From Nocardia carnea (GTDB taxonomy: Bacteria; Actinomycetota; Actinomycetes; Mycobacteriales; Mycobacteriaceae): a DNA stretch of 64,000 nt. Shown here in pieces: positions 2,189 to 23,393 of this stretch. Numbering within the stretch: position 1 is the stretch's first letter; each line of letters begins with the position of its first letter. The translations under genes and the position numbers were made by a program. The stretch covers positions 1 through 64,000 of the forward strand of contig NZ_JARWPM010000236.1 of assembly GCF_029869215.1 (NCBI RefSeq), in the 5' to 3' direction. The notes beneath the pieces were generated by a model. That model did no database searches. It saw nothing but the letters and a program-made list of their open reading frames with translations, and had not been told where the DNA came from.

Positions 2189-3484
2189 TCAGCGCGTCAA
2201 CAGTCTGTTTTCGATGAACTCCTCCATCGCCTGGTGCTGTGCGTCGGCGTCCCAGAGGCGTTCGTCGACCGTGTTGGCGTGAATGACATGGACAGGCACA
2301 CCCGCCCGTTCCAGAGCCAGCCTGGAGAAGTTGGCCGCCGTAGCCTGGGCGCGGTCTCCTTCCGAAATCAGAAGTACGGCACCGTCGATGCGGAAATCCT
2401 GGGCCTTCTGAACCACGTACTCGTTCATCCAACCCGGTAGGTGTAATTGTTCGTTCACGCTGAGGTGCCGGGCGGCGAGTGCACGGAACGGATCATCGTC
2501 GAAGTAGCGGCGGTAGCCGTCCGCGACGAAGTCCGTGTACATCGACCAGACGAATACTGCTCCGTACTTCTCCTCGAACGCGCGATAGAAGTCGGTATTG
2601 AACCAGAGGCCGTTGTTCAGCCACATCAGGCGCAGCTTCTCACCGGGGCAGATGGCCACGCCGTCGTCGATCCGGGCCCGCACCTCGGCCTGATAGGTGC
2701 GGGCGTGGTCGATCGACCACTGGGATCCGCGGTGCCACGTCGGGGTCATGACATTCGGGAGCTGGTCTTTCAGCGAGACCGGCAGACGCTCGGCGGTGGC
2801 GATCAGGTCGGCTGTCTCCCGGACGATTTCGCCCAGTTCATTCGTCAGGTGCATCTGGTGCCGCAGCTCGGTGTAGTCGAAGGTCTTGCCGCTCAGCGTC
2901 TCCAGCACCCGGACCAGGCTCTCCAGCTGGTCTACCTGGTGGTCGAGCCGGTCGGAGCCGAAAAACTGTTCCCAGTCGTGCTGATTCGCGTTCCACCAGT
3001 TGCCGCCGAGCTCGGCTACGGAGGTGCAGTCGATGGCGTAGTGGGGGACACCGAACGCATTTGCCCACTGCTCGAAGATGCGCTGACTGAAGTCGCCACG
3101 AAACCGGGACAGCAGGAGCAGTGGAGTGGGCAGGCCGCCGTACGGTGCAGCTGACGGATCGTCGTCGAGCGTGCTGAAGAGGGGAAGGCTGACATATCGG
3201 GCGAGGCGTTGGTGATATCCCATCCGGTTGGCCAGCTCGAAATAGCGCGGCGAGAGCTTCTTCGCCGCGATGATGCTGGAATACCAGACAGTCGACACCG
3301 CCGGTATATCCATCACGTGGGCGATCTCCAGTGGTGCGGCACCATCGGCGATGATGTATGGCTCGCCGTTCTCCATCGAGCGCCGGCGGAAGTCGGCAAA
3401 CCACGCCTTCTGTTTCTCGGCCGCAAGCAGGGAGCTGTCGAGGCGGCCGGGCACCTGGCGCGGAGACAAGGTATCGGAGGTCAT
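2189..3484 (-). CDS. 2-hydroxyacyl-CoA dehydratase D-component-like subunit (cysteine-poor)
   Basis: A 431-residue protein with the fold signature of the HgdA/HgdB/BcrB/BcrC family: SRFRGDFSQRIFEQWANAFG, GVPHYAID, GEKLRLMWLNNGLWFNT and, near the C terminus, DGAVLLISEGDRAQATAAN then RAGVPVHVIHANTVDERLW. Canonical subunits hold a [4Fe-4S] cluster with three cysteines. Here the aligned places carry no cysteine. The only two cysteines (YAIDCTSV and VAICPGEK) are elsewhere. It overlaps the upstream paralogue by four bases (ATGA), so the two are probably made as a heterodimer. No ATPase activator (HgdC/BadF type) lies in the window. Either the function has changed or this is a cluster-independent branch; radical dehydration should not be assumed. 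Confidence 0.75.
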   Translation of the reverse strand: MTSDTLSPRQVPGRLDSSLLAAEKQKAWFADFRRRSMENGEPYIIADGAAPLEIAHVMDIPAVSTVWYSSIIAAKKLSPRYFELANRMGYHQRLARYVSLPLFSTLDDDPSAAPYGGLPTPLLLLSRFRGDFSQRIFEQWANAFGVPHYAIDCTSVAELGGNWWNANQHDWEQFFGSDRLDHQVDQLESLVRVLETLSGKTFDYTELRHQMHLTNELGEIVRETADLIATAERLPVSLKDQLPNVMTPTWHRGSQWSIDHARTYQAEVRARIDDGVAICPGEKLRLMWLNNGLWFNTDFYRAFEEKYGAVFVWSMYTDFVADGYRRYFDDDPFRALAARHLSVNEQLHLPGWMNEYVVQKAQDFRIDGAVLLISEGDRAQATAANFSRLALERAGVPVHVIHANTVDERLWDADAQHQAMEEFIENRLLTR

Positions 3485-4686
3485 GCGGTCATCTCCTCGG
3501 GGTCGAACGCGGTGGTAGTCCCGGCCGTACCCGCGGCCAGGCTTTCGACGAACGGCGCGAGTGCCGTCCGCAGGCGCTGGGTATCGGGCTGGAAGTAGGG
3601 CTGATACGGGAGATAGCAGGAGGGAACGCCTGCCTCGTCGAGCAGCTTCTTCTGCGCCGGGTAGTCCCAGCCGAGGGTGTCGTCATTCTCTTCGAGGAAG
3701 AACACGACACCGTCGACTCCGGCATCGGCCACCATGCGCATGAAGATTTCGTCCTGGCGGCTCTGGGGGTAACTGCGAGCGCTCAGGCTGTCGAACTGGT
3801 AGTGATGGGTCAGGGCCTCGATCGGTCCGCCATCGCCTACCTCGATGGTGTGATCGAATGCGCGCTCGCCGGTCGGATGGTCGTCGGCGACGATGGACGC
3901 TCCCAGTTCCTCCAGGACGGTGTAGACCTCAAGCGAGTCGTGCTGGGTGCCTTTTACCATGACGCGCGGCCCGTGGGTCCGCCCATTCGCGGGGGCGGCG
4001 CCGCGTTCGCGAACGAGCGCATCGACGGCGTCCGCATGCTCGCGCGGATCCATGCCGCCGACGGCTCGCGCCGTGCGGAGCAGGTCGCTGCCGCTGACGA
4101 CGTCCGGGCGGTTGCGGCGCATGTCGTTCAGTTCGCGCAATGACCGGCGGCTGCGATTCACGGTTTCGATTCCGCTGCGGAGATCGTTCTCGCCGATCGG
4201 GCGGCCGCTGAGCTCCCCGATCCGTTGCCGGAGCGCTTCGACCTGTGCGCGTACGTAACGACCGCTGTGCCAGAACGGAGTCTGGAGAACGTCGAAGAGG
4301 TGGATGGCCGGAAACCGGCGGTCCGGTTCCCATTTCCGCGCTTCGAGTAGGTAGTAGTAGAGCTGGAGGTACGCCTCCGTGCTTCGCGGTATCACCAGCA
4401 GGTCCACGAAATCGAAGTCGCCTTCGAGGATTCTCGAGAAGATGCTTCGGACGTGACCGTCGTGGAAGTCTTCCATATAGGTATCGCCGGCTTCGGGTGA
4501 CCGATCAGGTGCACCGCGGACTTCGAATGCGAATGCGCCGGCTGCGGCGATCAGTTCGCGGGGAACGTTGTTCGATACGTAACCCACCACCATACCACCG
4601 GAGTCGTGGTGACGTCGGGCGGCGAGTTCGGGCACGGTCCACGCTGTCGCCAAGGCGTCCGTGGGGGGTTCGACCCGTTCAGTCAT
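3481..4686 (-). CDS. 2-hydroxyacyl-CoA dehydratase-like second subunit (cysteine-poor)
   Basis: A 401-residue protein, first gene of the minus-strand operon. Family features are MVVGYVSNNVPRELIAAAGA near residue 32, ILEGDFDFVDLLVIPRSTEA near 90, and DYPAQKKLLDEAGVPSCYLP near 355. The positions that carry cluster cysteines in canonical chains read YMEDFHDG, IPRSTEA and LEENDDT here, all without cysteine; the single cysteine (PSCYLP) is outside them. Its stop overlaps the start of the next subunit by four bases. The 53-base gap to the divergent thioesterase gene holds a repeated CTAAC element. Role inferred: non-canonical partner of a CoA-ester lyase or isomerase-like complex, or a substrate-binding scaffold. 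Confidence 0.7.
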   Translation of the reverse strand: MTERVEPPTDALATAWTVPELAARRHHDSGGMVVGYVSNNVPRELIAAAGAFAFEVRGAPDRSPEAGDTYMEDFHDGHVRSIFSRILEGDFDFVDLLVIPRSTEAYLQLYYYLLEARKWEPDRRFPAIHLFDVLQTPFWHSGRYVRAQVEALRQRIGELSGRPIGENDLRSGIETVNRSRRSLRELNDMRRNRPDVVSGSDLLRTARAVGGMDPREHADAVDALVRERGAAPANGRTHGPRVMVKGTQHDSLEVYTVLEELGASIVADDHPTGERAFDHTIEVGDGGPIEALTHHYQFDSLSARSYPQSRQDEIFMRMVADAGVDGVVFFLEENDDTLGWDYPAQKKLLDEAGVPSCYLPYQPYFQPDTQRLRTALAPFVESLAAGTAGTTTAFDPEEMTA

Positions 4687-4739: not shown

Positions 4740-5147
4740 ATGTCCGAACCTTCGTTCGAAGACTCGTTCCGCCGGTTACTCGGCGGTCGGCCCGATATGG
4801 CGGTCACACTCGGCCTCGCTCCGGTGCGGGGCGACGACCACGAGGTGGTGCTGAGTATGGAGTGGCGTCCCGAACTCGCTCAGCCCACAGGGGTGTTCTC
4901 TGCCGCGTCGCTGTTCGGGTTGGCTGATATCGCGGGGACTTTCCTGGCCATGCGTTACGTGCGAGAGGGGTTTCCCTTGGCGATCACCTCGTCGGTGCAT
5001 CTTCTCGGAAACACGCGCAGCGGGACAGCGCTTGCGACCGCTCGACTCATCAAGGCGGGCCGCACGGTGATCCGGACCGACACAATGGTCACAGCCGGCG
5101 ATGTCGATCTGGCGTCCGTCCAAACCACCTACCTGAACCCGTCGTAG
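4740..5147 (+). CDS. PaaI-like hotdog-fold acyl-CoA thioesterase
   Basis: A 135-residue, single-domain protein of normal length for hotdog thioesterases. The ATG at 4740 follows an AGTTAGGA stretch about ten bases away. Family features are the central GVFSAASLFGLADIAGTFLA helix (residues ~55-75), the strand AITSSVHLLGNTRSGTALAT and a final TDTMVTAGDVDLASVQTTYL. It probably hydrolyses an acyl- or aroyl-CoA, freeing CoA from dead-end products. It is transcribed away from the dehydratase-like operon and shares its promoter region, which suggests co-control. It converges on the ATPase gene ending at 5207. Confidence 0.75.
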   Translation: MSEPSFEDSFRRLLGGRPDMAVTLGLAPVRGDDHEVVLSMEWRPELAQPTGVFSAASLFGLADIAGTFLAMRYVREGFPLAITSSVHLLGNTRSGTALATARLIKAGRTVIRTDTMVTAGDVDLASVQTTYLNPS

Positions 5148-5206: not shown

Positions 5207-6064
5207 TCACGCCGGGGCCTGCGCAGCGGGTTCCGGCCGCTCGTGCTGGTCGCTCCGGTGCCGGGCGAGGAAGGCTCGGAGGCGGTCGCTGCGTGGATTG
5301 CCGAAGAACTCGCCCGGCCGGCCGGTCTCGACAACCCGGCCGTCCGCCATGAACACACAGCGATCGGCAACCTCGCGGGCGAAACCCATCTCGTGGGTGA
5401 CTACGACCATGGTTCGGCCGCGGTCCGCGAGCCGTCTGATGACAGCGAGCACATCTCCGACCAACTCGGGATCGAGTGCACTCGTGGGTTCGTCGAACAG
5501 CAGGACGCGTGGCTGGGTGGCGATGGCTCGGGCGATGGCCACTCGCTGCTGCTGGCCGCCGGAGAGCTGCCGCGGATATGAACGTTCTTTGCCGGACAAG
5601 CCCATCTCGCGCAGGAGATGGTGGGCACGCTCTTCCGCCTCGGCCCGGGGGTGCTTGTGTACTCGTATCGCGGGCTCGGTGATGTTGCGCAGCGCGGTCC
5701 AGTTGGGCACCAGGTTGAAGTGCTGGAACACCATCCCTATGCGCGACCGCTGTTGTGCGATGGCACGCTCGCTCATCGGGCGCAGCCGCCCTCGGTGTTC
5801 CTCGTAGCCCAGGAGCTCGCCGTCCAGGGTGACGCTGCCGCCATCCAGACTCTCCAGCATGTGGATGCACTTGACCAGGGTCGACTTACCCGAACCGGAC
5901 GGACCGAGGACCGCGAGTACTTCGCCGTCGTGAAGATCGATATCGACGCCGTCGAGCACGGCAACGGCGCCGAACGACTTCCTCAGGTTGCGCACCTGCA
6001 GCACCGGGCGCGTAGTCGGGCCGTCCAACGGGGAAGCGGCGGAGCCGGTTTCGGATTCGGTCAA
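5207..6064 (-). CDS. Polar amino acid-type ABC importer, ATP-binding subunit (GlnQ/HisP-like)
   Basis: A 285-residue ABC ATPase. Walker A GPSGSGKST lies near residues 54-62, the Q-loop MVFQHFNLVPNW near 111, the signature LSGGQQQR at 167-174, Walker B VLLFDEPTSALDP at 187-199 and the H-loop VVVTHEMGFA. The Q-loop and the MGLSGKERSYPRQLSGG stretch are typical of the amino-acid importer branch. It is the last gene of a three-gene, ATGA-coupled importer operon (binding lipoprotein, permease, ATPase). It powers uptake at the inner face of the membrane. The cargo is unknown, and the family name does not prove an amino acid. Confidence 0.92.
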   Translation of the reverse strand: MTESETGSAASPLDGPTTRPVLQVRNLRKSFGAVAVLDGVDIDLHDGEVLAVLGPSGSGKSTLVKCIHMLESLDGGSVTLDGELLGYEEHRGRLRPMSERAIAQQRSRIGMVFQHFNLVPNWTALRNITEPAIRVHKHPRAEAEERAHHLLREMGLSGKERSYPRQLSGGQQQRVAIARAIATQPRVLLFDEPTSALDPELVGDVLAVIRRLADRGRTMVVVTHEMGFAREVADRCVFMADGRVVETGRPGEFFGNPRSDRLRAFLARHRSDQHERPEPAAQAPA

Positions 6065-6996
6065 CGTGCTTGTCCTTTCATCAGACGACGTACGCTGCGG
6101 GACGGGGTGTTCGCGTGTCCCTGTCCGAACCGGATCTCTATCCGCCGCTGGACCGCGGACAACAGGGTCACGACCGCGAGGTACCAGAAGACGGAGACGA
6201 CGAGCAGCGGCACCACTTCGTAGTTGCGGTTGTAGATGAGTTGAACCGAAAGCAATAGATCGGTCATGCCGATCACGCTCACCAGGGATGTTCCCTTCAG
6301 GAGTCCTATGAGCTGGCTACCGGTCGGAGGGATGATTACGCGCATGGCCTGTGGCAGAACGATCCTCCGGAACGCTCGTCCGCTCGTGAAACCCATTGCC
6401 TTGCCGGCGTCCGTCTGGCCCTGATCCACCGACAGGATGCCCGCCCGAATGATCTCGGCCATATAGGCCGCCTCGTGCAGCGACAGACCGATGATCGCGG
6501 CGACGAAAGGCGTCATGAACGTATTGGTGGCGCCGGAGAAGACGACCCCGATCCCGGGGATGCTCAGTTCTACGGAGGGCACAAGGTAGGCGAGATTGAA
6601 CCAGAAGATGAGTTGTACCAGCGGTGGCACACCCCTGAACACAGTGACGAACAGCTTCGACACTGCGCGGGCAACTGTGACCTCGCTGAGCTGGCCGGCG
6701 GCGACGAGGACACCGAGCAGGCAGCCGGCGGTCATGCAGATGGCCGTCAGCGCGAGTGTCATCCACAGCCCGCGGAGTACGGAAGGGTCGAACAAATACT
6801 CGGCCACCGTGGGCCATTCGAACTTCGGGTTCGTCGCGGCGAAACGCATCAGGAGTAGCGCGGCGACGACGACGAGGATGGAGGTGGCGATCCGCCAGGG
6901 ATGGATGCGGCGTTTGGCATCGGCGATATCCACAGGCAGGGCCGCTGCCGCGCCCGCCCCGGCGATCCGGGTGGTCACTGCGCTCGCGCTCTTCAT
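6061..6996 (-). CDS. Polar amino acid-type ABC importer, permease subunit
   Basis: A 311-residue integral membrane protein. The ATG at 6996 overlaps the stop of the binding-protein gene (ATGA), so it is preferred over longer reading. A cytosolic N-terminal stretch precedes a first membrane helix (IATSILVVVAALLLMRFA); about five further helices follow. The EAA loop is clear: EIIRAGILSVDQGQTDAGKA then GFTSGRAFRRIVLPQAMRVI. It docks the ATPase encoded next with a four-base overlap. This is the HisM/GlnP-type permease, here present as a single gene, so a homodimer is likely. Confidence 0.9.
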   Translation of the reverse strand: MKSASAVTTRIAGAGAAAALPVDIADAKRRIHPWRIATSILVVVAALLLMRFAATNPKFEWPTVAEYLFDPSVLRGLWMTLALTAICMTAGCLLGVLVAAGQLSEVTVARAVSKLFVTVFRGVPPLVQLIFWFNLAYLVPSVELSIPGIGVVFSGATNTFMTPFVAAIIGLSLHEAAYMAEIIRAGILSVDQGQTDAGKAMGFTSGRAFRRIVLPQAMRVIIPPTGSQLIGLLKGTSLVSVIGMTDLLLSVQLIYNRNYEVVPLLVVSVFWYLAVVTLLSAVQRRIEIRFGQGHANTPSRSVRRLMKGQAR

Positions 6997-7904
6997 TCCG
7001 TCTGCCCTGACATGGGATTCAGCTGCGGGGCATCGATCCGCTCGTTCTCCAGGCCCCACTTCTGGATGATCTCTTCGTAGCCGCCGTTTGCAAACAGCCG
7101 CTGCCATGCCTCGAGCAGGACTGGGGCGAGGCCGCTTCCCTTCGGACTGACGACGGCGTCCAGGAATATCTGGGCGCCTTGCTCCGGCCCTTGGGTCACA
7201 TAGTCGTACTTGTCTTCCTGGGCCCGGATCAGGTCGAGCGCGGCCGATTCCGTCATCGCCGCGATATCGATCTGACCGGAGGAGAGCGCGAGCACGGTTG
7301 TGCTGGTGTCTTTGAGAGGCATTGCCGTCGGTGCTGCGCGTCCCTGGTCGACACACCAGTCACCGAGTTTGGGCAGCATGTCCTCCACAATGTTGCCTAC
7401 ACCGTGCCCGACCCGTTTGCCGCATACGTCGGCAATCGTCGAGACTCCGGTACTGCCGCCGGTCTCGTAGAGATAGCTGATGCTCTCCTGGAGCCAGGTC
7501 ACCATGTCCAGAGCCTCTTCACGCTGTGGTGACACCGCGAGTGGGCCGTTGTATGCGTCGTAGCGGCCGGAGCCCAGCCCGCTGAGAATGGCGGGCAAAG
7601 AAGCCGCGGACTCGAACTTGACGGGGATCCCGAGTTCGCCGCTGAGCGCATCCCATACGTCCGCATCAATCCCGGTGATCTTTCCGTTCGGTTCGACGAT
7701 TCGGTACGGGGGATGGGCGTCTGCCGCCACCCGAAGCTCGCCGGCGTCCCGAATCTCCTGCGGGAGCTTGGCGAAGAGGGTGTCGCTTCCGCCGATCGGC
7801 GGCGCAGCACTGTCCTGCGCGGTGGTTGCGCAGGCGCCTAGCACCGCGACGGCTGCGGTCAGCGACAGTCCGGTGCGGACCAATCGAGACAGGGCATTTC
7901 CCAT
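6993..7904 (-). CDS. ABC importer substrate-binding lipoprotein (family 3)
   Basis: I place the start at ATG 7904, not the in-frame ATG at 8012: AGGAAG sits eight bases before it, and the protein then opens with a normal signal peptide (MGNALSRLVRTG, SLTAAVAVLGAC) with lipobox LGAC. The mature domain has family 3 traits: AGELRVAADAHPPYRI, GITGIDADVWDAL-like segment near residue 80, and LSSGQIDIAAMTESAALDL. It should capture a small polar or acidic ligand outside the membrane. The corrected start leaves an untranslated leader of over 100 bases that holds the CTAACATGTTAG palindrome. Confidence 0.88.
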   Translation of the reverse strand: MGNALSRLVRTGLSLTAAVAVLGACATTAQDSAAPPIGGSDTLFAKLPQEIRDAGELRVAADAHPPYRIVEPNGKITGIDADVWDALSGELGIPVKFESAASLPAILSGLGSGRYDAYNGPLAVSPQREEALDMVTWLQESISYLYETGGSTGVSTIADVCGKRVGHGVGNIVEDMLPKLGDWCVDQGRAAPTAMPLKDTSTTVLALSSGQIDIAAMTESAALDLIRAQEDKYDYVTQGPEQGAQIFLDAVVSPKGSGLAPVLLEAWQRLFANGGYEEIIQKWGLENERIDAPQLNPMSGQTE

Positions 7905-8033
7905 ACTGATTCTTCCTGTGCTGAGGCCCTTCGATGTGCGCGTCCGAGTCATGGCGCCCGATGGCCGGGACGCAACAGGGTGCGCAAGAACCTGATGAGT
8001 GATGGACATCATGTGTCGTGCATCACAAAGATG

Positions 8034-8085: not shown

Positions 8086-9495
8086 CTACACAGAACCTGG
8101 ACTGCCGGGGGCTGGTCTCGGCAGAGCCCCGCGCACTCGTGAAGCCGGCAGCTGCCACTTTCTGACGCCGGTAACCATGTCGTCGATGGCTGCCTTTCCC
8201 GCATACCCGGCAGCGGATCGGTACATCTTCTCCAACAGTTCGGGCCAGTCGAATGGGTTCTCGGGGGACCCCGGTGGTGATGCGGACGCCTCGACCTGCG
8301 CTCCGTTTCGCAGAGTTACCTCGACGCGGGCGGACAAGCCGTGGGCGAATGCACGGTCCTGTTCTTCTCCGACGAGAACGTTCGTGTTGGTGGCAACCCG
8401 GGTCACCTCGGGAATCTCGAACGCGGAGCGTTCCAGTAGGTCGTAGTGCGAAGGATCGTTGCCGCCAAGTGCGATGGCCATGGCGGCGGTGACGTGCAGG
8501 CTGAATTGCGCCTCTGTCAGACTTCGAACTCGAGGCCCCAGGTGCCCACAATGGGCGGCGGTGGTGCGATCGGTATAGATGCGGACGCTTTCGACTTCCT
8601 CGGTGCGCAAGCCTTGGGCCTGTAGCGTGCCCAGCGCTGCGAGGGCGGCGTGGTTGCCTGTGCAGGTGCTCCAGGCTTTGATGCCCAATCCGTCGCAGTG
8701 CCAAGTTTCGCCGAGGCCGTCGGTGAGACGGTCGAGCTCGACCCGCCGCCCGCCGAATGACCTCGCGAACCCTCGGTCACCTTCGATGGGATGATCGGGG
8801 CCGGTAGCACCATGCTGAGCGAGTTCCGCACTGCGGATACCCGCGGCAGCAGCGAAGCCGGCATGCAGTCGCTTGACCTCTCCGCCTGACCGGGTGAACT
8901 CGGTCGTTCCCCCTGCCTGCGCAACAGCGAGGCCGAGGGCATGCTGCGTCCGAGTGGGGTCCAGCTGCCACAGGCTGGCAGCTGCAGCTGCTGCGCCGAG
9001 CGGGCCGAAGCTGCTGGTGACGTGGAAGCCGCGGTCCTGGGTGATTTCAGGGGACATCGCCAGCCCCAGCCGAATGGTCACCTCGTATCCGACCGCCAAG
9101 GCGGTCAGCAGGTCCCGTCCGCGCGCGTCGATCTCCTCGGCCACCGAGATTCCGGCGGGTACGACGACACAGCCGGCGTGGACGGCGGCCGGGACGTGGT
9201 AGTCGTCGAGCTCCAGTCCATGCAGCGCGGTGGCATTGACGAAGGCTGCCGGTCCCGGGCGCAGCCGAGCGGTGTGGCCGATGATCGCGCTGTGCCCGGC
9301 CGCGCTCTCTCGCCGGGCGAGCGAGCGGGCGGCTTCGGTCCACGGCCGTGCGCTGGCCGCCATCATCGCCGCAATGCCGTCGGCGGCGTGCAGGGTCACT
9401 TTGTCGATCACCTCCGCGGGCACATCCGACCATGTTGTGCCGGCGATGAAATCGGCAAGCTCGGCCGTGACTGCGGCCGTTGACGACCAGGTCAC
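8086..9495 (-). CDS. MmgE/PrpD family protein (2-methylcitrate dehydratase/itaconate-type fold)
   Basis: A 469-residue protein starting at GTG 9495, which overlaps the stop of the CapA-like gene (GTGA). The N-terminal helical domain shows VTLHAADGIAAMMAASAR, and GLELDDYHVPAAVHAG is the conserved LDdyH/HPg-type region. The pattern KRLHAGFAAAAGIRSAELAQ (residues ~215-235) is the lysine/histidine helix of the family. Members dehydrate or isomerise small di- and tricarboxylic acids, but many are uncharacterised. It is the third gene of a PaaX, CapA-like, PrpD operon. No methylcitrate synthase or lyase is nearby, so the propionate pathway is unlikely. The substrate is unknown. Confidence 0.85.
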   Translation of the reverse strand: MTWSSTAAVTAELADFIAGTTWSDVPAEVIDKVTLHAADGIAAMMAASARPWTEAARSLARRESAAGHSAIIGHTARLRPGPAAFVNATALHGLELDDYHVPAAVHAGCVVVPAGISVAEEIDARGRDLLTALAVGYEVTIRLGLAMSPEITQDRGFHVTSSFGPLGAAAAAASLWQLDPTRTQHALGLAVAQAGGTTEFTRSGGEVKRLHAGFAAAAGIRSAELAQHGATGPDHPIEGDRGFARSFGGRRVELDRLTDGLGETWHCDGLGIKAWSTCTGNHAALAALGTLQAQGLRTEEVESVRIYTDRTTAAHCGHLGPRVRSLTEAQFSLHVTAAMAIALGGNDPSHYDLLERSAFEIPEVTRVATNTNVLVGEEQDRAFAHGLSARVEVTLRNGAQVEASASPPGSPENPFDWPELLEKMYRSAAGYAGKAAIDDMVTGVRKWQLPASRVRGALPRPAPGSPGSV

Positions 9496-10655
9496 GGCTG
9501 AGCCTCGGCGGTGACGACTTCCGGACGTACGAAATCTCCGTCCGTCCGGAACTCTGTGCTCAGTCCGGCCTGCCGGGTCACGGATGTCATGTAGTCCACG
9601 ACATCCGCGAAACGGGTATCGGACGGTGTCAGCTGTTCGGTCTGGGAGTTGTCGTTGATCCACCCCGGGAAGAACCCGTAGTCGGTGAGGCGGCCATCCG
9701 TGATGACGAATTTCGCGATGATCGTCTTGCGGGAGTCCGGGGGAAAGTTGAAGGTCGACTCGTAGTTGGGCACCCACTCGGGGTTGAGGGCCAGAATCTC
9801 CTGAAACGATTTCGACGCGACATGCTCCGGAGTGATCCTCGTGTCCATCGCGAAGTTGGCAAGGCTGTAGAAGATCGGGACACCCTTGTAGATCTCGATA
9901 CCTTTCAGGATGTGTGAGTGGTGGCCGATGACAACGTCCGCGCCGGCATCCACGGCGGCTCGAGCCACGTCCCGCTGGTAGTCCGCGATCTCGGCGGGGA
10001 TGAAATGGATGCCCCAGTGGAACGAGGCGATGACGAACCGGCCTGCGGACTTCTGCTGGGTGATATCGGCGCGCAGCGCCGCGAGATCGTCACGGTGGGC
10101 GAAGGTGTGGATGCGCGCCGGCGTACCGGGCTGATCGTGCTCGACCTGCTCGTAGAAAGTGAAAGCTCGCATCGGAGCGCAGCCGGGCCGGTTCTCGGTC
10201 GCCCAGAAACTGTGGGGAAGGATCGAACTGTACGAGAGCACTGACACCTCGCCGCCGGAGGCGGGGAGGACAGCAGGTTGTCGTGCTTCGTCGATGTTCG
10301 CCCCCACCCCGACAGGGTGCAGGTGCGCCGCACGCAGGTTCGTGATCGTCTCGAGCATTGCTCGGGCTCCGAAGTCCATGCAGTGGTTCCCGGCGAAGGA
10401 GATCACGTCGAATCCGTTGTCGGCCAGTGCTCGAGCCGCCGCTGGATCACCTTTGACCGTGTGACGCACCTGAGGCAACCGTTCGCCGCTCTCGGCCAGC
10501 ACGAACTCCAACTGGCCGAAGGTGATGTCCGCGGAGCGAAGCAGTTCTCGGGTCGGCTCGAACAGTTCTCCCGCATCGTCGCGGTCCGGGCCGATATCGC
10601 CCACCGCGAGCACGACCGCAGTGCCGTGGTGCTGTTGTTCTTCTGATCGGGTCAT
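9492..10655 (-). CDS. CapA-family metallophosphatase-like protein, apparently cytosolic
   Basis: A 387-residue protein. The ATG at 10655 follows a GAAGGA ribosome site; no signal peptide or membrane helix is present. CapA/PGA_cap features: AVGDIGPDRD near residue 16, SADITFGQLEFVLAE, GFDVISFAGNHCMDFGARAM with the GNH motif near 85, IASFHWGIHFIPAEI with HWG, and DVVIGHHSHILKGIEIYKGV. These residues build a binuclear-metal phosphoesterase-like site. Classical CapA acts in poly-gamma-glutamate export. Here the setting (PaaX regulator, PrpD, divergent importer) and the lack of a leader argue for a catabolic, perhaps peptidase- or amidase-like role. Specific activity cannot be assigned. Confidence 0.82.
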   Translation of the reverse strand: MTRSEEQQHHGTAVVLAVGDIGPDRDDAGELFEPTRELLRSADITFGQLEFVLAESGERLPQVRHTVKGDPAAARALADNGFDVISFAGNHCMDFGARAMLETITNLRAAHLHPVGVGANIDEARQPAVLPASGGEVSVLSYSSILPHSFWATENRPGCAPMRAFTFYEQVEHDQPGTPARIHTFAHRDDLAALRADITQQKSAGRFVIASFHWGIHFIPAEIADYQRDVARAAVDAGADVVIGHHSHILKGIEIYKGVPIFYSLANFAMDTRITPEHVASKSFQEILALNPEWVPNYESTFNFPPDSRKTIIAKFVITDGRLTDYGFFPGWINDNSQTEQLTPSDTRFADVVDYMTSVTRQAGLSTEFRTDGDFVRPEVVTAEAQP

Positions 10656-10678: not shown

Positions 10679-11596
10679 TCAGGGCATGCCGGTCAGCGGG
10701 CCCATTTCCTTTGCCGGTATCGCCATGAGGCGGATTTCTGCGCTCCTGAGGGAGCGGACGTCGGTGGAAAGAGCTGGTTCGTATTCGTCGAGGAGCTGCC
10801 GGAACCGGAGGTCGGCGAGTTCGGCCAAGCCGTCGTAGATGCCCACGAAGATGTCGCGGGCCTGTCGTAGCGGCCACTGGGGTGGCTGGATCTCTGGGGG
10901 TAGGAGTGGGTCGTGATCGGGGAAGAACCGCCACTGTTGCATCACCCGTGCCCGCTGGACTAGTGCTTCTGCGGCACCGACCGTGCCGACGTCGACTCGC
11001 TCCAGCAGGGGGGCGAAGGTGGTGATGAAGCTCTTGTAGCGTTCTTCCAGGTGCTCGAACGAGTAGGCGCGGATGGGGTCACCGAGCCCGAAGTGTTCTT
11101 CGATGCGGGCGCCGGCGATCACCGTGGCCTTCTGCAGTTCCAAGGACTCCAGAGTGGCCTTCAGCGGCGTAGGCGGTGGCCCGGGCCTGACCCAGACGCC
11201 GTCGTACAGAGTCGCGAACCTCATCGCGTCGAGCCTGTGCCGGATCAGGTGGCGCTGCGAGCGATTCTTCTCCGCGACGGAGAACATCACGATCGACCAA
11301 GTGCCGTCCCAGGTTGTGGCCCGACCGCCGAAGTCGACGATTTCACTGAGTCTCTCGGCGTGGTGCTCGTGTGCGCTGTCGGAGAGCCGGTAATAGGTCG
11401 AGCGGCCGGGCTTGCTCACCTCGAGTAGTCCGCGTTTGGTCACCCGGCTCAATCCGTTGCGGGCCCCGATCTCGGTGACGTCGAACTCCTCCAGGAGGCG
11501 AACGAGAAATGCCGACGGGATCGGCTTGCGCTGCCCGAAGAAGTAGGTGCCCAGCAGAGTCACCAGGAGGTCCTGCGAGCCCGCGTGTTCTGCCAC
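10679..11596 (-). CDS. PaaX-family transcriptional regulator
   Basis: A 305-residue protein of normal PaaX length. The N-terminal winged helix reads LLVTLLGTYFFGQRKPIPSA then GARNGLSRVTKRGLLEV and RSTYYRLSDSAHEH. The PaaX core TWDGTWSIVMFSVAEKNRSQ follows near residue 94, and a long helical C-terminal domain completes it. PaaX proteins are repressors released by aryl-CoA thioesters, notably phenylacetyl-CoA. No phenylacetate genes are in the window, so the inducer here is another CoA ester or is unknown. It heads the minus-strand operon with the CapA-like and PrpD genes and is divergent from the importer at 11959. Confidence 0.88.
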   Translation of the reverse strand: MAEHAGSQDLLVTLLGTYFFGQRKPIPSAFLVRLLEEFDVTEIGARNGLSRVTKRGLLEVSKPGRSTYYRLSDSAHEHHAERLSEIVDFGGRATTWDGTWSIVMFSVAEKNRSQRHLIRHRLDAMRFATLYDGVWVRPGPPPTPLKATLESLELQKATVIAGARIEEHFGLGDPIRAYSFEHLEERYKSFITTFAPLLERVDVGTVGAAEALVQRARVMQQWRFFPDHDPLLPPEIQPPQWPLRQARDIFVGIYDGLAELADLRFRQLLDEYEPALSTDVRSLRSAEIRLMAIPAKEMGPLTGMP

Positions 11597-16082: not shown

Positions 16083-16123
16083 TATCAGAGTCTCTGATAC
16101 CTTCGATATCAGAGATTCTTACA
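16083..16123. promoter_or_regulatory. MarR operator pair in the ech/MarR divergent promoter
   Basis: TATCAGAG (16083-16090) and CTCTGATA (16092-16099) form a perfect 17-base palindrome centred on one T. The half-site TATCAGAG returns at 16107-16114 in an imperfect second copy (to about 16123). Both lie between the MarR start and ech, a usual arrangement for a MarR dimer that controls both directions. Confidence 0.75.
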
Positions 16124-16188
16124 TGCCGGGGTGGTCCTCGTATCGAGCACCCGGCCGGCGACCGTTCCGAGTTCCCCAGGGAGATCTG

Positions 16189-17049
16189 ATGACCATCGAC
16201 ACCGACAACGAGCCGTGGGGTAACACGGTCACGGTCGAATTCGACGAACACCGCATCGCGTGGGTGAGCCTCAATCGGCCCGATAAGCGCAACGCGATGA
16301 ACCCGGCGCTGAACCGGGAAATGTTCGCCACACTGGATCGGCTCGAGGACGACGACCGGTGCGCCGTGGTGGTTCTCACCGGTGCTGGTGAAGCGTTCTC
16401 CGCGGGCATGGATCTCAAGGAGTACTTCCGGGAAACCGACGGTAAACCGCGCGCGGTACAGCACCGGGTACGTGGCGAGGGCACGAACTGGCAGTTCCGT
16501 AAGCTGTACAACTTCACCAAGCCGACCATCGCGATGGTCAACGGCTGGTGTTTCGGTGGTGCCTTTGTCCCGTTGGTGTCCTGTGATCTGGCGATCGCCG
16601 CCGAGGACGCGACCTTCGGTCTCTCGGAAGTCAATTGGGGTGTCACCCCGGGTAATCTCGTGACCCGGGCCCTCGCCGAGACCATCCCCACTCGCGACGC
16701 GATGTACCACATCATGACCGGTGAACCGTTCGACGGCCGCCGCGCCGCAGAGATGCGGCTGGTCAACGAGGCCGTGCCAGCCGAGCAGTTGCGCGAACGC
16801 ACCATCGAACTGGCACTGAAGCTGACGTCGCTGAGCCAGTGGGTGGTGCGCTGCACCAAGATCGGTTTCCGGCACTCGCGCTTGATGTCGTGGGAGGCGG
16901 CAGAAGACTTCCTGTATGCCAAGCACGACCAGGCGATCCTGTTCGATGCCGATGCCCGGGAACAGGGTATGACAGAGTTCCTCGATACCAAGACCTACCG
17001 GCCCGGCCTGGAGACCTACTCGAACTCGGATCAGGAAGCACGCCGATGA
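16189..17049 (+). CDS. ech: Hydroxycinnamoyl-CoA (feruloyl-CoA) hydratase/lyase
   Basis: A 286-residue crotonase-fold enzyme; ATG 16189 follows GGGAG. It hydrates feruloyl-, p-coumaroyl- or caffeoyl-CoA and cleaves it to the benzaldehyde and acetyl-CoA. Family signatures: LNRPDKRNAMNPALNREM, SAGMDLKEYFRETDG with the active-site Tyr of the KEYF motif (Y79), KPTIAMVNGWCFGGAF and FGLSEVNWGVTPGNLV with catalytic Glu147. The C-terminal FLYAKHDQA and GMTEFLDTK segments also match. It leads an ATGA-coupled operon with vdh and then fcs, the standard side-chain shortening set. Confidence 0.93.
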   Translation: MTIDTDNEPWGNTVTVEFDEHRIAWVSLNRPDKRNAMNPALNREMFATLDRLEDDDRCAVVVLTGAGEAFSAGMDLKEYFRETDGKPRAVQHRVRGEGTNWQFRKLYNFTKPTIAMVNGWCFGGAFVPLVSCDLAIAAEDATFGLSEVNWGVTPGNLVTRALAETIPTRDAMYHIMTGEPFDGRRAAEMRLVNEAVPAEQLRERTIELALKLTSLSQWVVRCTKIGFRHSRLMSWEAAEDFLYAKHDQAILFDADAREQGMTEFLDTKTYRPGLETYSNSDQEARR

Positions 17050-18515
17050 CCAGTCCAGCTCACGTCGCCACGGTGAATTTGCATATCGGTGGCGCCGCGA
17101 CCGCCCCGGAAAAGGGACGCTTCTTCGTCAAGTCTCAGCGCCTGACCGGGCAGGAAATCGCCCGGGTAGCAGCCGCTGCAGCTTCCGACGCCGTCCGTGC
17201 CGCAACCGCAGCCGCCGAGGCCGCACCCTCCTGGGCCGGGCTGGCCCCGGCCGCCCGCCGGACGATCCTCGAACGCGCCGCCGAACTGCTCGAGCACCGG
17301 AGCGCGGAGATCGCCGCGACGATGGGGCGGGAGATGGGCGCGGCGGCCGCGTGGTGCGGTTTCAATGTCAAGCTCGGCGCCGGCATGCTGCGCGAGGCCG
17401 CAGCTCAGGTCTATTCCACTGTCGGGCAGGTGATTCCGTCGGATGTGCCGGGGATGACCGCACTGGCCGAGCGGAAGCCGCTGGGTGTCGTGGTGGGGAT
17501 CGCGCCGTGGAATGCCCCGATCATCCTCGGAGTCCGGGCGATCGCGATGCCGCTGGCGCTGGGTAACACCGTCGTGCTGAAAGCGTCGGAGGAAACTCCG
17601 GCCACCCACGCGGCCATCGTGCAGTGCCTCGTCGACGCCGGCGCCCCGGCCGGAGTGGTCAACTTGATCACCAACGCCGCCGAGGACGCCCCCGAAGTCG
17701 TCGAAGCACTGATCGCGCACCCGGCTGTGCGGTGCGTCAACTTCACCGGCTCGACCCGCGTCGGACGCAGAATCGGTGAGCTGGCGGGCCGGCACTTGAC
17801 TCGCTCGGTGCTCGAACTCGGTGGCAAAGCACCGTTTCTGGTCTTGGCCGACGCCGACCTCGACGAGGCCGTCGCGGCCGCATCGTTCGGGGCGTTCATG
17901 AACCAGGGCCAGATCTGTATGTCCACCGAGCGGATCATCGTCGATCGCGCGGTGGCCGAACCCTTCGCCGAGAAGCTCGCCGCACGCGCCCGGGCACTGG
18001 TTGTCGGCGATCCGCAGGATCCCGGGACCCAGCTCGGTCCGCTCGTCCACGAGACCGCGGTCGCCCACGTGCATGCCTTGGTCCAGGACGCAGTCGCGCA
18101 CGGCGCGACGGTGCTCACCGGTGGTGAACCCGATGGATTGTTCTACCCGCCCACGGTGCTGAACGGAGTCGGATCCGATGCGCGGATCTACCGTGAGGAA
18201 TCCTTCGGCCCTGTGGCGCCGATCATCGTTGTCGACGGTGTAGACGAAGCGGTGCACGTGGCCAATGATTCGGAGTATGGGTTGTCCGCTGCGGTGTTCA
18301 CCGCCGATACGGACCTCGGGCTGCGGGTGGCCCGCCGGATCGAATCCGGTATCTGCCATATCAACGGAGCGACGGTGCACGACGAGGCACAGATGCCGTT
18401 CGGCGGTGTCAAGGCCAGCGGGTACGGCCGGTTCGGTTCGCAGGCCTCGCTCGAGGAGTTCACCGAACTGCATTGGGTCACCGTCTCGTCCGAGCATCGT
18501 CATTACCCGATCTGA
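17046..18515 (+). CDS. vdh: Vanillin/hydroxybenzaldehyde dehydrogenase
   Basis: A 489-residue NAD(P)-dependent aldehyde dehydrogenase. The ATG overlaps the ech stop (ATGA). Motifs: GIAPWNAPIILGVRAIAMPL (~151-170), FTGSTRVGRRI near 233, general base Glu257 in LELGGKAPF and catalytic Cys291 in NQGQICMSTERI. A final PFGGVKASGYGRFGSQASLE is the usual ALDH C terminus. Context shows it oxidises the aldehyde released by Ech, such as vanillin, 4-hydroxybenzaldehyde or protocatechualdehyde, to the acid. Which one dominates is unknown. Confidence 0.9.
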   Translation: MTSPAHVATVNLHIGGAATAPEKGRFFVKSQRLTGQEIARVAAAAASDAVRAATAAAEAAPSWAGLAPAARRTILERAAELLEHRSAEIAATMGREMGAAAAWCGFNVKLGAGMLREAAAQVYSTVGQVIPSDVPGMTALAERKPLGVVVGIAPWNAPIILGVRAIAMPLALGNTVVLKASEETPATHAAIVQCLVDAGAPAGVVNLITNAAEDAPEVVEALIAHPAVRCVNFTGSTRVGRRIGELAGRHLTRSVLELGGKAPFLVLADADLDEAVAAASFGAFMNQGQICMSTERIIVDRAVAEPFAEKLAARARALVVGDPQDPGTQLGPLVHETAVAHVHALVQDAVAHGATVLTGGEPDGLFYPPTVLNGVGSDARIYREESFGPVAPIIVVDGVDEAVHVANDSEYGLSAAVFTADTDLGLRVARRIESGICHINGATVHDEAQMPFGGVKASGYGRFGSQASLEEFTELHWVTVSSEHRHYPI

Positions 18516-18529
18516 GTGGAGACCTTGCG

Positions 18530-20080
18530 ATGACACACAGCACTGCCCCCGCGCCGGGCGACAACCCGTTCGCAGCGATGGTGCCCCGGTACGGGGAACT
18601 GGTCGAGCGTCGTGCCGAACGTCAGCCCGAGCGGGTGGCCATTGTGCACGAGGACCGGTGCTGGAGCTACGGCCATCTGCGAGATCGCATTCACGCGGCG
18701 GCGCAGTTCCTGAGCCGGCGCGGAGTCGTTCCGGGCGACCGCGTGGTGTGCTTCTCGGAGAACCGTCCCGAAATGCTGGTAGCGCTCTACGCCTGCTCCC
18801 GCATCGGAGCCGTGTTCGCCCCGGTGGGGGTCGCCTCCACCGTCGAGGAACTCACCCATATCGTCGACGACCTCGACGCGCGGGTGGTGCTGGTGTCCGC
18901 AGAGACGGCCGATCGCCTCGCCGGCGATATCGGTCCCCACATTGCGCTGTATCTGCTCGCACCCACTAGCGGCACCTCGCTGGACGTGATTCCGGCGGGT
19001 GCCGACACGGTGGTGGACGTCCATCGGTCCGATCCCGAAGATCCCGCCCTGATCGTCTACACCTCGGGTACCTCGGGCCGTCCAAAGGGGGTGATCCTCA
19101 GCCATCGGGCGCTGTGGTTCAACAGCCTCAACACGCTCCTGGGTCTCGATATCGTTTCCGACGATGTCACGCTGGTGAACACGCCCCTGTCCCACACCGC
19201 CGCACTGAACACGTTGGCAGTCAGCACGCTGTACAAGGGCGGGACGGTGGTTATCGATCGAGGTTTCGATGCGCTCCGGTGTCTCGACCAGATCTGCCGG
19301 CATCGGGTGACCACCATGTTCGCGGTGCCGTCGATGCTGGCGCTGATGGCTCGGTCGGAGGGGTTCGACCTCGCCGACCTGTCGAGCTTGCGGTGGGTCC
19401 TCGGCGGTGGGGCGCCGATGCCTCCGGCGCTGGTGGCGACGTGGTCCGGTCGAGGGGTGCCGGTACTGCCGAGCTTCGGCATGACCGAGGCAGGCCCGTC
19501 GGTCAGTTTCCGCAGGCGCGACGAGGGCTCGTCGAAGTCAGGATCCTCGGGACCAGCGGCGCTATTGACCGATCTGCGCATCGTCTCGCCGCAAGGTATC
19601 GACTGTGCTACCGGCGCGGTCGGGGATATCTGGGTTCGCGGCCCGCATCTGGCGTCCGGATACTGGCGCAACATCGAGGCCACCGCGGCTGCCTTCGTGG
19701 GGGAGTGGCTGATCACGGGGGATCGTGGATACCTCGACGAGGACGGTGACCTGTGGGTGACCGGACGGTCCAAGGACACCATCATCACCGGCGGTGAGAA
19801 CGTCGATCCCGCAGAGGTCGAGCACCTGATCGCCCAGTATCCCGGGATCCGGGAGGCGGCCGTGGTGGGAAGACCTCACCCGGTGTGGGGAGAGGTGATC
19901 ACGGCCGTGCTCGTTACAGACGTCGAGGTCACCGTCGAGGATCTGCGGCATTTTCTGCAGCCGCATTTAGCGAAGTTCAAAATCCCGCGCGCGATCGAGA
20001 CACGATCGGAGCTGCCACGCAGCGCGGTGGGCAAATTGCTGCGGCGCGCACTGGCCGAGTCGACCGAGTACACACCTTGA
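18530..20080 (+). CDS. fcs: Feruloyl-CoA (hydroxycinnamate-CoA) synthetase
   Basis: A 516-residue ANL-superfamily acyl-CoA ligase; ATG 18530 follows GTGGAGA. The adenylation loop YTSGTSGRPKGVIL lies at 177-190, the A5-type FGMTEAGPS near 330, the hinge region TGDRGYLDEDGDLWVTGRSK near 405, and the C-terminal catalytic lysine in RSAVGKLLRRAL near 502. It would activate the free hydroxycinnamate with ATP and CoA, the first step of the pathway, although it lies third in the operon. Substrate is inferred from the ech-vdh context; medium-chain or other aryl acids cannot be excluded. Confidence 0.87.
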   Translation: MTHSTAPAPGDNPFAAMVPRYGELVERRAERQPERVAIVHEDRCWSYGHLRDRIHAAAQFLSRRGVVPGDRVVCFSENRPEMLVALYACSRIGAVFAPVGVASTVEELTHIVDDLDARVVLVSAETADRLAGDIGPHIALYLLAPTSGTSLDVIPAGADTVVDVHRSDPEDPALIVYTSGTSGRPKGVILSHRALWFNSLNTLLGLDIVSDDVTLVNTPLSHTAALNTLAVSTLYKGGTVVIDRGFDALRCLDQICRHRVTTMFAVPSMLALMARSEGFDLADLSSLRWVLGGGAPMPPALVATWSGRGVPVLPSFGMTEAGPSVSFRRRDEGSSKSGSSGPAALLTDLRIVSPQGIDCATGAVGDIWVRGPHLASGYWRNIEATAAAFVGEWLITGDRGYLDEDGDLWVTGRSKDTIITGGENVDPAEVEHLIAQYPGIREAAVVGRPHPVWGEVITAVLVTDVEVTVEDLRHFLQPHLAKFKIPRAIETRSELPRSAVGKLLRRALAESTEYTP

Positions 20081-20099
20081 CCGAGAAAGCGCACACCCG

Positions 20100-21326
20100 A
20101 TGAGCATTTCCACAACGGATACAGGAACCGGCGGCGCACTACGCGTCGTCATCGTGGGCGGCGGCATCGGCGGCCTGGCGGCTGCCGCATTCTTGCACCG
20201 AGCCGGAATTGATGTCGCCGTGTACGAGCAGGCACAGCAGCTCGGTGAGGTGGGAGCCGGCTTGGTCGTTTCCCCGAACGCGGTGCGGCTGCTGCGCCGG
20301 CTGGGTCATCTCGACCGATTCCTCGACTCCGCCGTCGAACTCGAAGTCGCCTGGGAGTTCCGGCGCTGGCAGGACGGTTCGGTGCTGTCGGCCGAGCAGA
20401 TGAGTGGGCGCTGTGCCGATCTCTACGGTGAAAACGCGTATGTCAGCCATCGTGCCGACTTGCTCGAAGCCATCCGCGCTGCGGTACCGCCGGAACTGCT
20501 GCACCTGGGCAAGCGGTGCACCGGAATCGATGCGCACCCCGACAAGGTCGGGGTCCATTTCGATGACGGCACCTCCGTCGAGGCCGATGTGGTGATCGGT
20601 GCCGATGGGGTGCACTCGCAGATCCGCGGGCACATCACCACACCCGCTCCCGCGACCTACTCCGGTATGTGCGCCTTCCGAGCCCTTGTTCCGGCCGAAG
20701 CCGCCCCCGAGTTCAGCCGCCGCCCCGTGCAGACCTTGTGGATCGGGCCCGATCATCACCTGGTTCACTACCCGGTCTCGGCGGGACGCAAGATCAACAT
20801 TGTGGCGTTCGCGCCCGCCGGGGACTTCACCGACGAGTCCTGGAGCAGCCAGGGCACCGTCGAGGAATTGCTGGCCGAGTTCGACGGCTGGGACCCGCGC
20901 CTTCAGAAACTGATCGAGAACGCGGGTACTCCCGGCCGCTGGGCCCTCCTCGATCGAGCCCCTCTGTCGCGGTGGACCAGCGGTCGAGTGGCCTTGCTCG
21001 GCGACGCCGCCCACCCCATGTTTCCCTTCTTCGCCCAGGGCGCAGTGCAGGCCATCGAGGATGCCGCCGCGCTCGCTCAGTGCCTGGCCGGCGAACCGGA
21101 CAACCCTGAAAAAGCCCTCTCGATCTATGAACAGCTGAGGATTCCCCGGGCGGGCCGACTGCAACAACTCAGCCACGAACGCAAAGACATCAACCATCTG
21201 TCCGACGGTCCCGATCAGCAGCAGCGAGATGCCGAACTCGGTGCGGGAGATGCCCTCGCCCGCAGCGGATGGATCTACGGATACGACGCCGAAGCCGCAG
21301 CCCGGGAGGCACTGGCACAATGCTGA
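20100..21326 (+). CDS. FAD-dependent aromatic hydroxylase (salicylate/hydroxybenzoate type)
   Basis: A 408-residue group A flavoprotein monooxygenase. Features: FAD-binding VVIVGGGIGGLAAAAFLHRA (~17-36), the DG fingerprint VIGADGVHSQIRG near 164, and GDAAHPMFPFFAQGAVQAIE near 303. The branch includes salicylate 1-hydroxylase, 6-hydroxynicotinate 3-monooxygenase and 3-hydroxybenzoate 6-hydroxylase, several of which decarboxylate while hydroxylating. It lies 19 bases after fcs and overlaps the maleylacetate reductase gene by seven bases. With a hydroxyquinol dioxygenase downstream, an attractive role is to turn the benzoate made by Vdh (for example protocatechuate) into hydroxyquinol. That step is inference. 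Confidence 0.85.
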   Translation: MSISTTDTGTGGALRVVIVGGGIGGLAAAAFLHRAGIDVAVYEQAQQLGEVGAGLVVSPNAVRLLRRLGHLDRFLDSAVELEVAWEFRRWQDGSVLSAEQMSGRCADLYGENAYVSHRADLLEAIRAAVPPELLHLGKRCTGIDAHPDKVGVHFDDGTSVEADVVIGADGVHSQIRGHITTPAPATYSGMCAFRALVPAEAAPEFSRRPVQTLWIGPDHHLVHYPVSAGRKINIVAFAPAGDFTDESWSSQGTVEELLAEFDGWDPRLQKLIENAGTPGRWALLDRAPLSRWTSGRVALLGDAAHPMFPFFAQGAVQAIEDAAALAQCLAGEPDNPEKALSIYEQLRIPRAGRLQQLSHERKDINHLSDGPDQQQRDAELGAGDALARSGWIYGYDAEAAAREALAQC

Positions 21327-23307: not shown

Positions 23308-23393
23308 CGCCGGCGGCGCCGGCCCGCTCCTCCCTGCACAAGTCTCGCAAAGCCCGAGCGCTCGTCCGGCTCGGTGGACGAAAGAGAAGGCCG

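Follow-up and report, generated by a model that had tools for sequence, protein, structure and literature searches.

Can a protein pair built on the fold of a radical iron-sulfur dehydratase dispense with its cluster? The question is posed by two genes of Nocardia carnea at positions 2189-4686 of a 64,000-nucleotide stretch of DNA (the first 64,000 positions of contig NZ_JARWPM010000236.1, called the window herein), whose products, a beta and an alpha subunit, belong to the HGD-D family of 2-hydroxyacyl-CoA dehydratases. We found that neither chain has a cysteine at a cluster-ligand place and that no activator gene scores over the cut-off in the genome. The pair very probably binds no canonical cluster and needs no activator. 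With less assurance, we consider it rather probable that alpha and beta combine into a catalytic heterodimer, that this heterodimer represents a separate branch of the benzoyl-CoA reductase/2-hydroxyacyl-CoA dehydratase (BCR/HAD) superfamily that works independently of an activator, and that this member lacks the canonical [4Fe-4S] cluster. More tentatively, it may carry out polar chemistry on a CoA ester.

The original prediction, made from the letters of the window alone, had described two coupled genes that keep the fold motifs of the family, and our analysis agrees. Both open reading frames are intact, encode full-length HGD-D proteins and match PF06050 far above its cut-off of 28.4 bits; since they share four bases (3481-3484, ATGA on the minus strand), translational coupling of beta and alpha is suggested. 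No NCBIfam model for the named equivalogs (HadB/HadC, BzdN/BzdO, the double-cubane protein) reached its curated cut-off for either chain, the best scores being 98.9 bits versus 350 for beta (NF040772) and 63 bits versus 448.6 for alpha (TIGR03191). The AlphaFold models of alpha and beta are confident (pLDDT 92.5 and 92.4, respectively). When compared with alpha-type chains, the alpha model matched HadB (3o3m_A, Z 41.1, root-mean-square deviation 2.3 over 391 residues) and BzdO (Z 39.6), and the best matches of the beta model among beta-type chains were BzdN (8s02_B, TMt 0.91) and HadC (3o3m_B, TMt 0.89). Foldseek rows below the family level were weak, for instance UPF0261 Saro_1862 with a TM of 0.17.

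To place the cluster ligands, we used phmmer alignments, which position BzdN Cys73, Cys100, and Cys327 and BzdO Cys380 directly; BzdO Cys95 and Cys128 were assigned via the invariant Cys columns of canonical alphas, not via BzdO's own sequence. The corresponding residues are D76, T103, and D335 in beta and A95, G130, and D377 in alpha. As had been claimed, the pair contains three cysteines in total (C357 in beta, C153 and C279 in alpha) with none at a ligand place, and neither chain possesses the three Cys ligands for [4Fe-4S] that mark the radical enzymes. Cysteines at the cluster places, which would have spoken against the original prediction, were looked for by sequence alignment and not found. 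The low cysteine count is by itself unremarkable, and C279 is common to 45 of 89 related alphas though it lies outside the ligand places; judged from the alignments, the point is that the ligand columns are vacated.

These relatives came from several searches. The window alpha had a match in 37 of 396 genomes of its phylum, with 36-41% identity to a second copy in its own genome and to the proteins of two others (G172 and G353) and 22-29% for most remaining matches. With beta as the query, nine of 99 genus and order relatives gave a match, namely five holders of the clade described here, three with canonical pairs, and the window's own genome. Profile scores split cleanly into clade alphas at 340 bits or more (the 340 being a fragment) and others at 108 or less, and by this measure the window pair is a member of a distinct clade within the HGD-D family. 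When 84,980 species were scanned using four alphas, 330 stretches encoding a relative were obtained, so the branch probably occurs in hundreds of species. We examined the best 80 of the 330 (79 distinct loci), selected for similarity to aligned alphas, four in number, that are devoid of the relevant cysteines; L014 was excluded because it is another fragment of the L017 locus. Beta was found in the same locus as alpha in 77 of 83 loci, and of the six without it four have alpha near a contig end and two (L066 and L072) do not. Beta and alpha are fused in one open frame at four loci, L049 (8652-10952, 766 amino acids), L050 (1-2466, cut by the contig end), L088, and L098, the last three frames spanning 821 to 897 codons stop to stop; the hosts are two genomes of the window's phylum and two labeled Bacillota.

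We aligned 89 clade alphas with 32 other alphas and 83 clade betas with 31 others. Canonical betas have Cys in 31/31 rows at each of the three places, and canonical alphas in 26/26, 32/32, and 32/32 ungapped rows (six rows are gapped at the first place). Among the clade betas, Cys occurs at the first, second, and third place in 0, 4, and 0 of 83 rows and never at all three together. The third place is D or E in every row, the second D or S in 66, and the first D in 52, with A, P, S, T, and Q also found there. The clade alphas are all-or-none, with exactly four cysteines among five places in 40/89 and zero in 49/89, a ratio that is no census because the best 80 of 330 stretches were picked by likeness to zero-Cys alphas. 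In 35 of the 40 four-Cys alphas, two canonical places are combined with two new ones (CxxC, CxC) and the third canonical Cys is gone; the other five keep all three canonical places and add one new. A constant four cysteines with one site swapped for another suggests, as far as sequence can tell, a four-ligand metal site, and a fully ligated cluster or zinc there would leave no open site for substrate. The expectation that homologues would have lost the three cysteines was thus borne out for beta, and for alpha it has to be amended to a graded branch in which canonical-Cys, four-Cys, and zero-Cys members stand side by side. Misalignment hiding cysteine triads was ruled out by allowing four residues on either side: no beta row of 83 and none of the 49 zero-Cys alphas has, for each of the three places, a Cys there or up to four residues away. 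Single cysteines that near occur in 1, 4, and 2 of 83 betas at the three places and near the second place in 3/49 zero-Cys alphas.

On the tree, the zero-Cys alpha state needs at least three changes, with or without the Cys columns. A single origin was rejected by the approximately unbiased test, with p 5.8e-6 when the Cys columns were kept and p 7.2e-8 when they and their neighbors were removed. We read the state as probably reflecting several losses, not gains, because the canonical homologues have Cys at the same places. The window alpha groups with proteobacterial sequences, and it and the second copy in its own genome (L005) fall in two different zero-Cys groups, so that one genome's two copies seem to have lost the cysteines separately. 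These trees were of the quick kind and leave several basal forks open; the tree that grouped the window alpha and L005 held 12 of the 32 canonical alphas, the alignments A2 and A3 held 54 and 45 clade rows, and the window row sits on a long branch (0.79) with its exact sister unsure. Going beyond the original prediction, the window lineage is one of at least three without the four-Cys site.

Residues that serve catalysis in the canonical enzymes are retained in alpha. In BzdO, Glu65 is described as the acid/base group and Tyr97 and Tyr298 as binding the thioester oxygen (PMC11971306). Their window counterparts are E53, Y97, and Y316, conserved in 87/89, 89/89, and 89/89 clade alphas, together with E282 and R285 (88/89 each). 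In canonical alphas the E53 column is E in 22/26 ungapped rows, the Y97 column Y in 26/26, and the Y316, E282, and R285 columns are Y, E, and R in 32/32. Other invariant residues, many of them Trp, are specific to the clade and not found in canonical alphas (W67, K75, W140, W250, W313, and R339), and 34 columns are invariant across 54 alpha sequences from several phyla. Mean column identity is 35% for beta versus 58% for alpha, a looseness of beta that is expected if it no longer relays electrons.

The claim that no activator lies in the window also stood. Because the window begins at base 1 of its contig and the DNA beyond the GntR gene is unseen, we searched the whole genome (460 contigs, completeness 100, contamination 2.5), window included, and found no TIGR00241 activator over the cut-off of 125.4 bits, the best match having E 0.088 and 14.5 bits. 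An activator just outside the window, also named beforehand as a finding that would count against the prediction, was thereby not found, and we extended the search to 60 genomes, 10 canonical-pair controls and 50 clade genomes (42 from the 79 scanned loci, mostly long contigs with completeness not told, and 8 of the window's phylum). TIGR00241 exceeded its cut-off in 10/10 controls and in 5/50 clade genomes. These five (L064, L066, L072, L088, and L098) are exactly those with all three canonical alpha Cys, and since each has 6 to 10 matches, their activators may well serve other dehydratases. The 45 genomes with no match over the cut-off comprise 33 zero-Cys and 12 four-Cys members; one clade genome (G521) gave a weak partial match below cut-off (E 1.1e-4). 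The idea that aerobes cannot keep activators was ruled out, as canonical HGD-D pairs on plasmids of Rhizobium leguminosarum and Sphingopyxis macrogoltabida (L136 and L137) keep their cysteines with an activase nearby, and three genomes of the window's genus carry canonical pairs that retain all six cysteines and lie within ∼2.5 kb of an activator (Table 1), a radical system in actinomycetes that we would expect to be aerobic.

Lastly, we analyzed the gene neighborhood. All 59 of 59 loci (58 with at least 5 kb on either side of alpha, plus the window added by hand) have a CaiB-type gene no more than 8 kb from alpha, in line with operons of the Had/Fld type. By chance, ∼0.05 CaiB genes per locus would be expected in this genome (22 copies in 7.76 Mb) and ∼0.1 in the densest of 15 genomes counted (25 copies in 4.4 Mb). 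The predicted cluster-free branch without an activator, probably acting on a CoA ester, is supported by the ligand alignment, by the tree, by the whole-genome activator search, and by linkage to CaiB. Some loci have two or three CaiB genes. Double-length CaiB proteins (646-805 amino acids as called) occur at 22 loci, for example L116:7833-9965 and L126:7917-9998, between beta and alpha at 19 of them, just after alpha at L059, and just before alpha at L096 and L117, where beta was not found; the L116 protein, the sole one profiled, shows two CoA_transf_3 stretches.

Table 1. Coordinates of the gene pair, its cluster-ligand places, neighboring genes, and canonical pairs in the window's genus (window positions unless a contig is given).
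Feature	Position	Strand	Evidence or remark
HGD-D beta subunit (401 aa; HadC/BzdN-like) without cluster cysteines	3481-4686	minus	PF06050 E 3e-51, 175.4 bits
HGD-D alpha subunit (431 aa; HadB/BzdO-like) without cluster cysteines	2189-3484	minus	PF06050 E 3.2e-33, 116.2 bits
Beta D76	4459-4461	minus	place of BzdN Cys73 (alignment)
Beta T103	4378-4380	minus	place of BzdN Cys100 (alignment)
Beta D335	3682-3684	minus	place of BzdN Cys327 (alignment); D or E in 83/83 clade rows
Alpha A95	3200-3202	minus	first canonical alpha Cys place, assigned to BzdO Cys95 (alignment)
Alpha G130	3095-3097	minus	second canonical alpha Cys place, assigned to BzdO Cys128 (alignment)
Alpha D377	2354-2356	minus	place of BzdO Cys380 (alignment)
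GntR/FCD regulator at contig end	3-719	minus	PF00392 and PF07729
Family III CoA-transferase (CaiB type), 422 aa	761-2029	minus	PF02515 E 1.9e-110
PaaI-like thioesterase, divergent from beta (start approximate)	4740-5147	plus	4HBT PF03061 E 1.5e-4, 22.4 bits vs 20.6
Amino-acid-type ABC transporter ATPase	5207-6064	minus	PF00005; best NCBIfam amino-acid ABC ATPase models below cut-offs
ABC transporter permease (start approximate)	6061-6996	minus	ORF translation, family by eye; second-operon counterpart L005 2763-3719
Solute-binding protein, family 3	6993-8012	minus	PF00497 E 7.8e-18
MmgE/PrpD family protein (start approximate)	8086-9495	minus	PF03972 E 2.4e-62; profile match 8164-9495
CapA-like PGA_cap protein (start approximate)	9492-10640	minus	PF09587 E 1.3e-61; profile match 9519-10634
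PaaX-type regulator	10679-11596	minus	PaaX, PaaX_M, PaaX_C
Canonical pairs, window's genus (L010, L011, L012)	G046:C1:3071023-3074305; G048:C6:65128-68400; G039:C59:30600-33822		

The pair sits in a minus-strand block from about 11596 to 3, ordered PaaX type, CapA-like, MmgE/PrpD, solute-binding protein, permease, ATPase, beta, alpha, CaiB, and GntR, with only the PaaI-like thioesterase (between the ATPase and beta) on the other strand. The second operon, on another contig (L005), runs PaaX type, solute-binding protein, permease, ATPase, CapA-like, CaiB, beta, and alpha, followed by a transporter-like ORF and a CocE-type hydrolase. Besides CaiB, no constant partner emerged among the 59 loci; using neighbor profiles built from our own clusters and named by Pfam scan of one or a few members or by eye, we counted the tripartite ATP-independent periplasmic (TRAP) transporter protein DctM at 44, MarR at 33, CapA-like proteins at 27, CocE-type hydrolases at 14, PrpD at 6, and tannase at 2. 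The annotated genes of Novosphingobium ES2-1 run GntR, CocE hydrolase, TonB receptor, CapA, two TRAP genes, a hypothetical gene where beta would be, CoA transferase, alpha, DctP, another hypothetical gene, a second CoA transferase, and a hydrolase; a second CapA, a tannase/feruloyl esterase, and an MmgE/PrpD gene come farther along. These neighbors hint at carboxylates and ester-bound, perhaps aromatic, compounds as substrates; we claim no particular one.

Two side observations concern this setting. CapA-like proteins are linked to the clade in the window, at L005 (4652-5806), and at L111 (1190-2284). When the L111 protein (not that of the window) was compared with the PDB, the only solved relatives were 8gq9 and its variants; 8gq9 is presented as MslH, a metal-dependent lasso-peptide epimerase (PMC10406935), and by analogy the CapA-like proteins may epimerize or hydrolyze the pathway substrate. 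Separately, translations of window positions 16123-25220, read by eye, resemble an aromatic catabolic set with an enoyl-CoA hydratase/lyase, an aldehyde dehydrogenase, an acyl-CoA ligase, an FAD monooxygenase, a maleylacetate reductase, an intradiol dioxygenase, and an acyl-CoA dehydrogenase.

According to their record labels, the hosts among the best 80 of the 330 stretches include Massilia, Devosia, rhodobacters, sphingomonads, caulobacters, Acidobacteria, one Chloroflexi, two Bacillota, and two deltaproteobacteria/Myxococcota. One further label, Klebsiella pneumoniae for the metagenome bin of L123, is probably wrong, as its clade locus groups with uncultured gammaproteobacteria. In an even draw of 299 genomes from another phylum, the clade occurred in 2, one being the draw's centre genome itself, and the clade is widespread but patchy. 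Going by genus names, the hosts are of aerobic habit, and the branch would accordingly be expected to tolerate oxygen.

We propose that the ABC transporter would bring in a carboxylic acid, onto which the CaiB-type transferase would load CoA from a product ester. HadA and FldA load CoA in this way for the canonical dehydratases. Alpha would then hold the thioester so that Y97 and Y316 contact its carbonyl oxygen and E53 serves as acid/base, and polar chemistry via an enolate, with no injected electron, would follow, most likely an elimination, an isomerization, or a C-C cleavage; beta, canonically the electron relay, would be retained as scaffold. That the pair performs polar acid/base catalysis of this kind is a tentative proposal drawn by analogy. 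More tentative still is a stepwise dismantling, in which the beta relay cluster went first and the alpha cluster turned into a fully Cys-ligated site that was then lost in at least three lineages, converting a radical Fe-S fold into a metal-free, oxygen-stable CoA-ester enzyme with a new polar acyl-CoA (perhaps aromatic) activity outside the known enzyme classes. Several points weigh against these proposals. The CoA-ester and acid/base roles are transferred from BzdO at ∼20% identity, and the site residues were matched by sequence, not by structural coordinates: Y316 aligned directly with BzdO Tyr298, and for E53 and Y97 the correspondence to Glu65 and Tyr97 was drawn from alignments with HadB and MbdO and from shared motifs. 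Moreover, with 40/89 clade alphas keeping a four-Cys site, metal-free operation is claimed for the zero-Cys lineages only. Because transporters differ by lineage (ABC, TRAP, major facilitator superfamily, TonB), the reaction may differ between lineages too.

Other explanations account for parts of these data. The vacated places could have become a new site for a single metal ion (Mg, Mn, or Fe(II)) with carboxylate ligands, in beta around D76/T103/D335, and catalysis or structure would depend on the metal. The acidic third place and the prevalence of D at the first and of D or S at the second would suit such a site, and the joint presence or absence of the four alpha cysteines suggests that metal binding mattered in the clade; however, A, P, S, T, and Q at the first place would make poor ligands and beta is weakly conserved overall, and we regard this as unlikely, if the strongest of the alternatives. 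A different possibility is that the chemistry belongs to the CaiB enzymes, with the pair serving as an accessory (a CoA-ester carrier, hydrolase, or allosteric partner). Double-length CaiB genes between beta and alpha at 19 loci and beside alpha at three more, as well as the loci with multiple CaiB genes, would fit this, but alpha keeps the acid/base and thioester residues expected of an enzyme, which makes an accessory role appear rather improbable.

Two further explanations stay closer to the canonical enzymes. A pair that still makes ketyl radicals, with a cluster on other ligands or an activator of another kind, would share family and fold with the radical enzymes, its Glu65-like residue is conserved, and its pairing with CaiB resembles the had and fld operons. 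However, the pair has three cysteines in all and none near the sites, no TIGR00241 match over cut-off was found in this genome or in 45/50 clade genomes, and the plasmid pairs of Rhizobium leguminosarum and Sphingopyxis show that such hosts do not force the loss of cysteines and activase. We judge continued radical chemistry very improbable. The disappearance of all six cluster ligands could also mean decay into non-functional copies of a canonical dehydratase, yet the coupled ORFs are intact, the invariant alpha columns extend over several phyla, one genome holds two such operons, and CaiB is kept at every locus, so that decay is scarcely credible.

Accordingly, we favor an activator-independent enzyme pair that is built on the 2-hydroxyacyl-CoA dehydratase frame and should not be filed as one, because the cluster ligands and the activator that define the radical mechanism were looked for and not found. 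The annotated clade proteins bear the name "2-hydroxyacyl-CoA dehydratase family protein," which ties zero-Cys members to a reductive radical activity that they very probably cannot perform. An old radical fold seems to have found a new use in different chemistry, and the data suggest that ligand loss happened several times; a clade with canonical-Cys, four-Cys, and zero-Cys alphas offers a natural series for cofactor loss in a radical Fe-S enzyme under selection and may include an as yet unknown step in the catabolism of carboxylates or aromatic compounds. In the open-licence PMC papers on the family, taken by titles and abstract openings, we found no account of cluster-free members, and our literature search returned no description of the four-Cys alphas.

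Among known systems, the window pair resembles HadBC of (R)-2-hydroxyisocaproyl-CoA dehydratase (3o3m, with HadA and HadI) in the predicted fold of both chains, the alpha-beta gene pair, the active-site Glu and Tyr motifs, and a neighboring CaiB-type CoA-transferase, which is HadA in the case of HadBC. Unlike HadBC, it lacks cluster cysteines in both chains and a genomic activator over cut-off, and identity is ∼20%. BzdNO, the class I benzoyl-CoA reductase (8s02), is the best PDB sequence match for both chains and has Glu65, Tyr97, and Tyr298 where the window alpha has E53, Y97, and Y316, but its BzdO 95/128/380 and BzdN 73/100/327 cysteines and its ATP-dependent activator have no counterpart. 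The double-cubane cluster protein DCCP (6eno, 7yyl) shares the fold and gives a partial sequence match to the window beta, whereas the double-cubane cluster is DCCP's own and its cysteine sites are unmatched there. Also close are the four-Cys alphas of the same clade (for example those of L126, L064, and L088), which share a beta without the Cys triad, the CaiB gene, and the invariant Trp-rich alpha core, and which differ in four alpha cysteines that possibly form one metal or Fe-S site.

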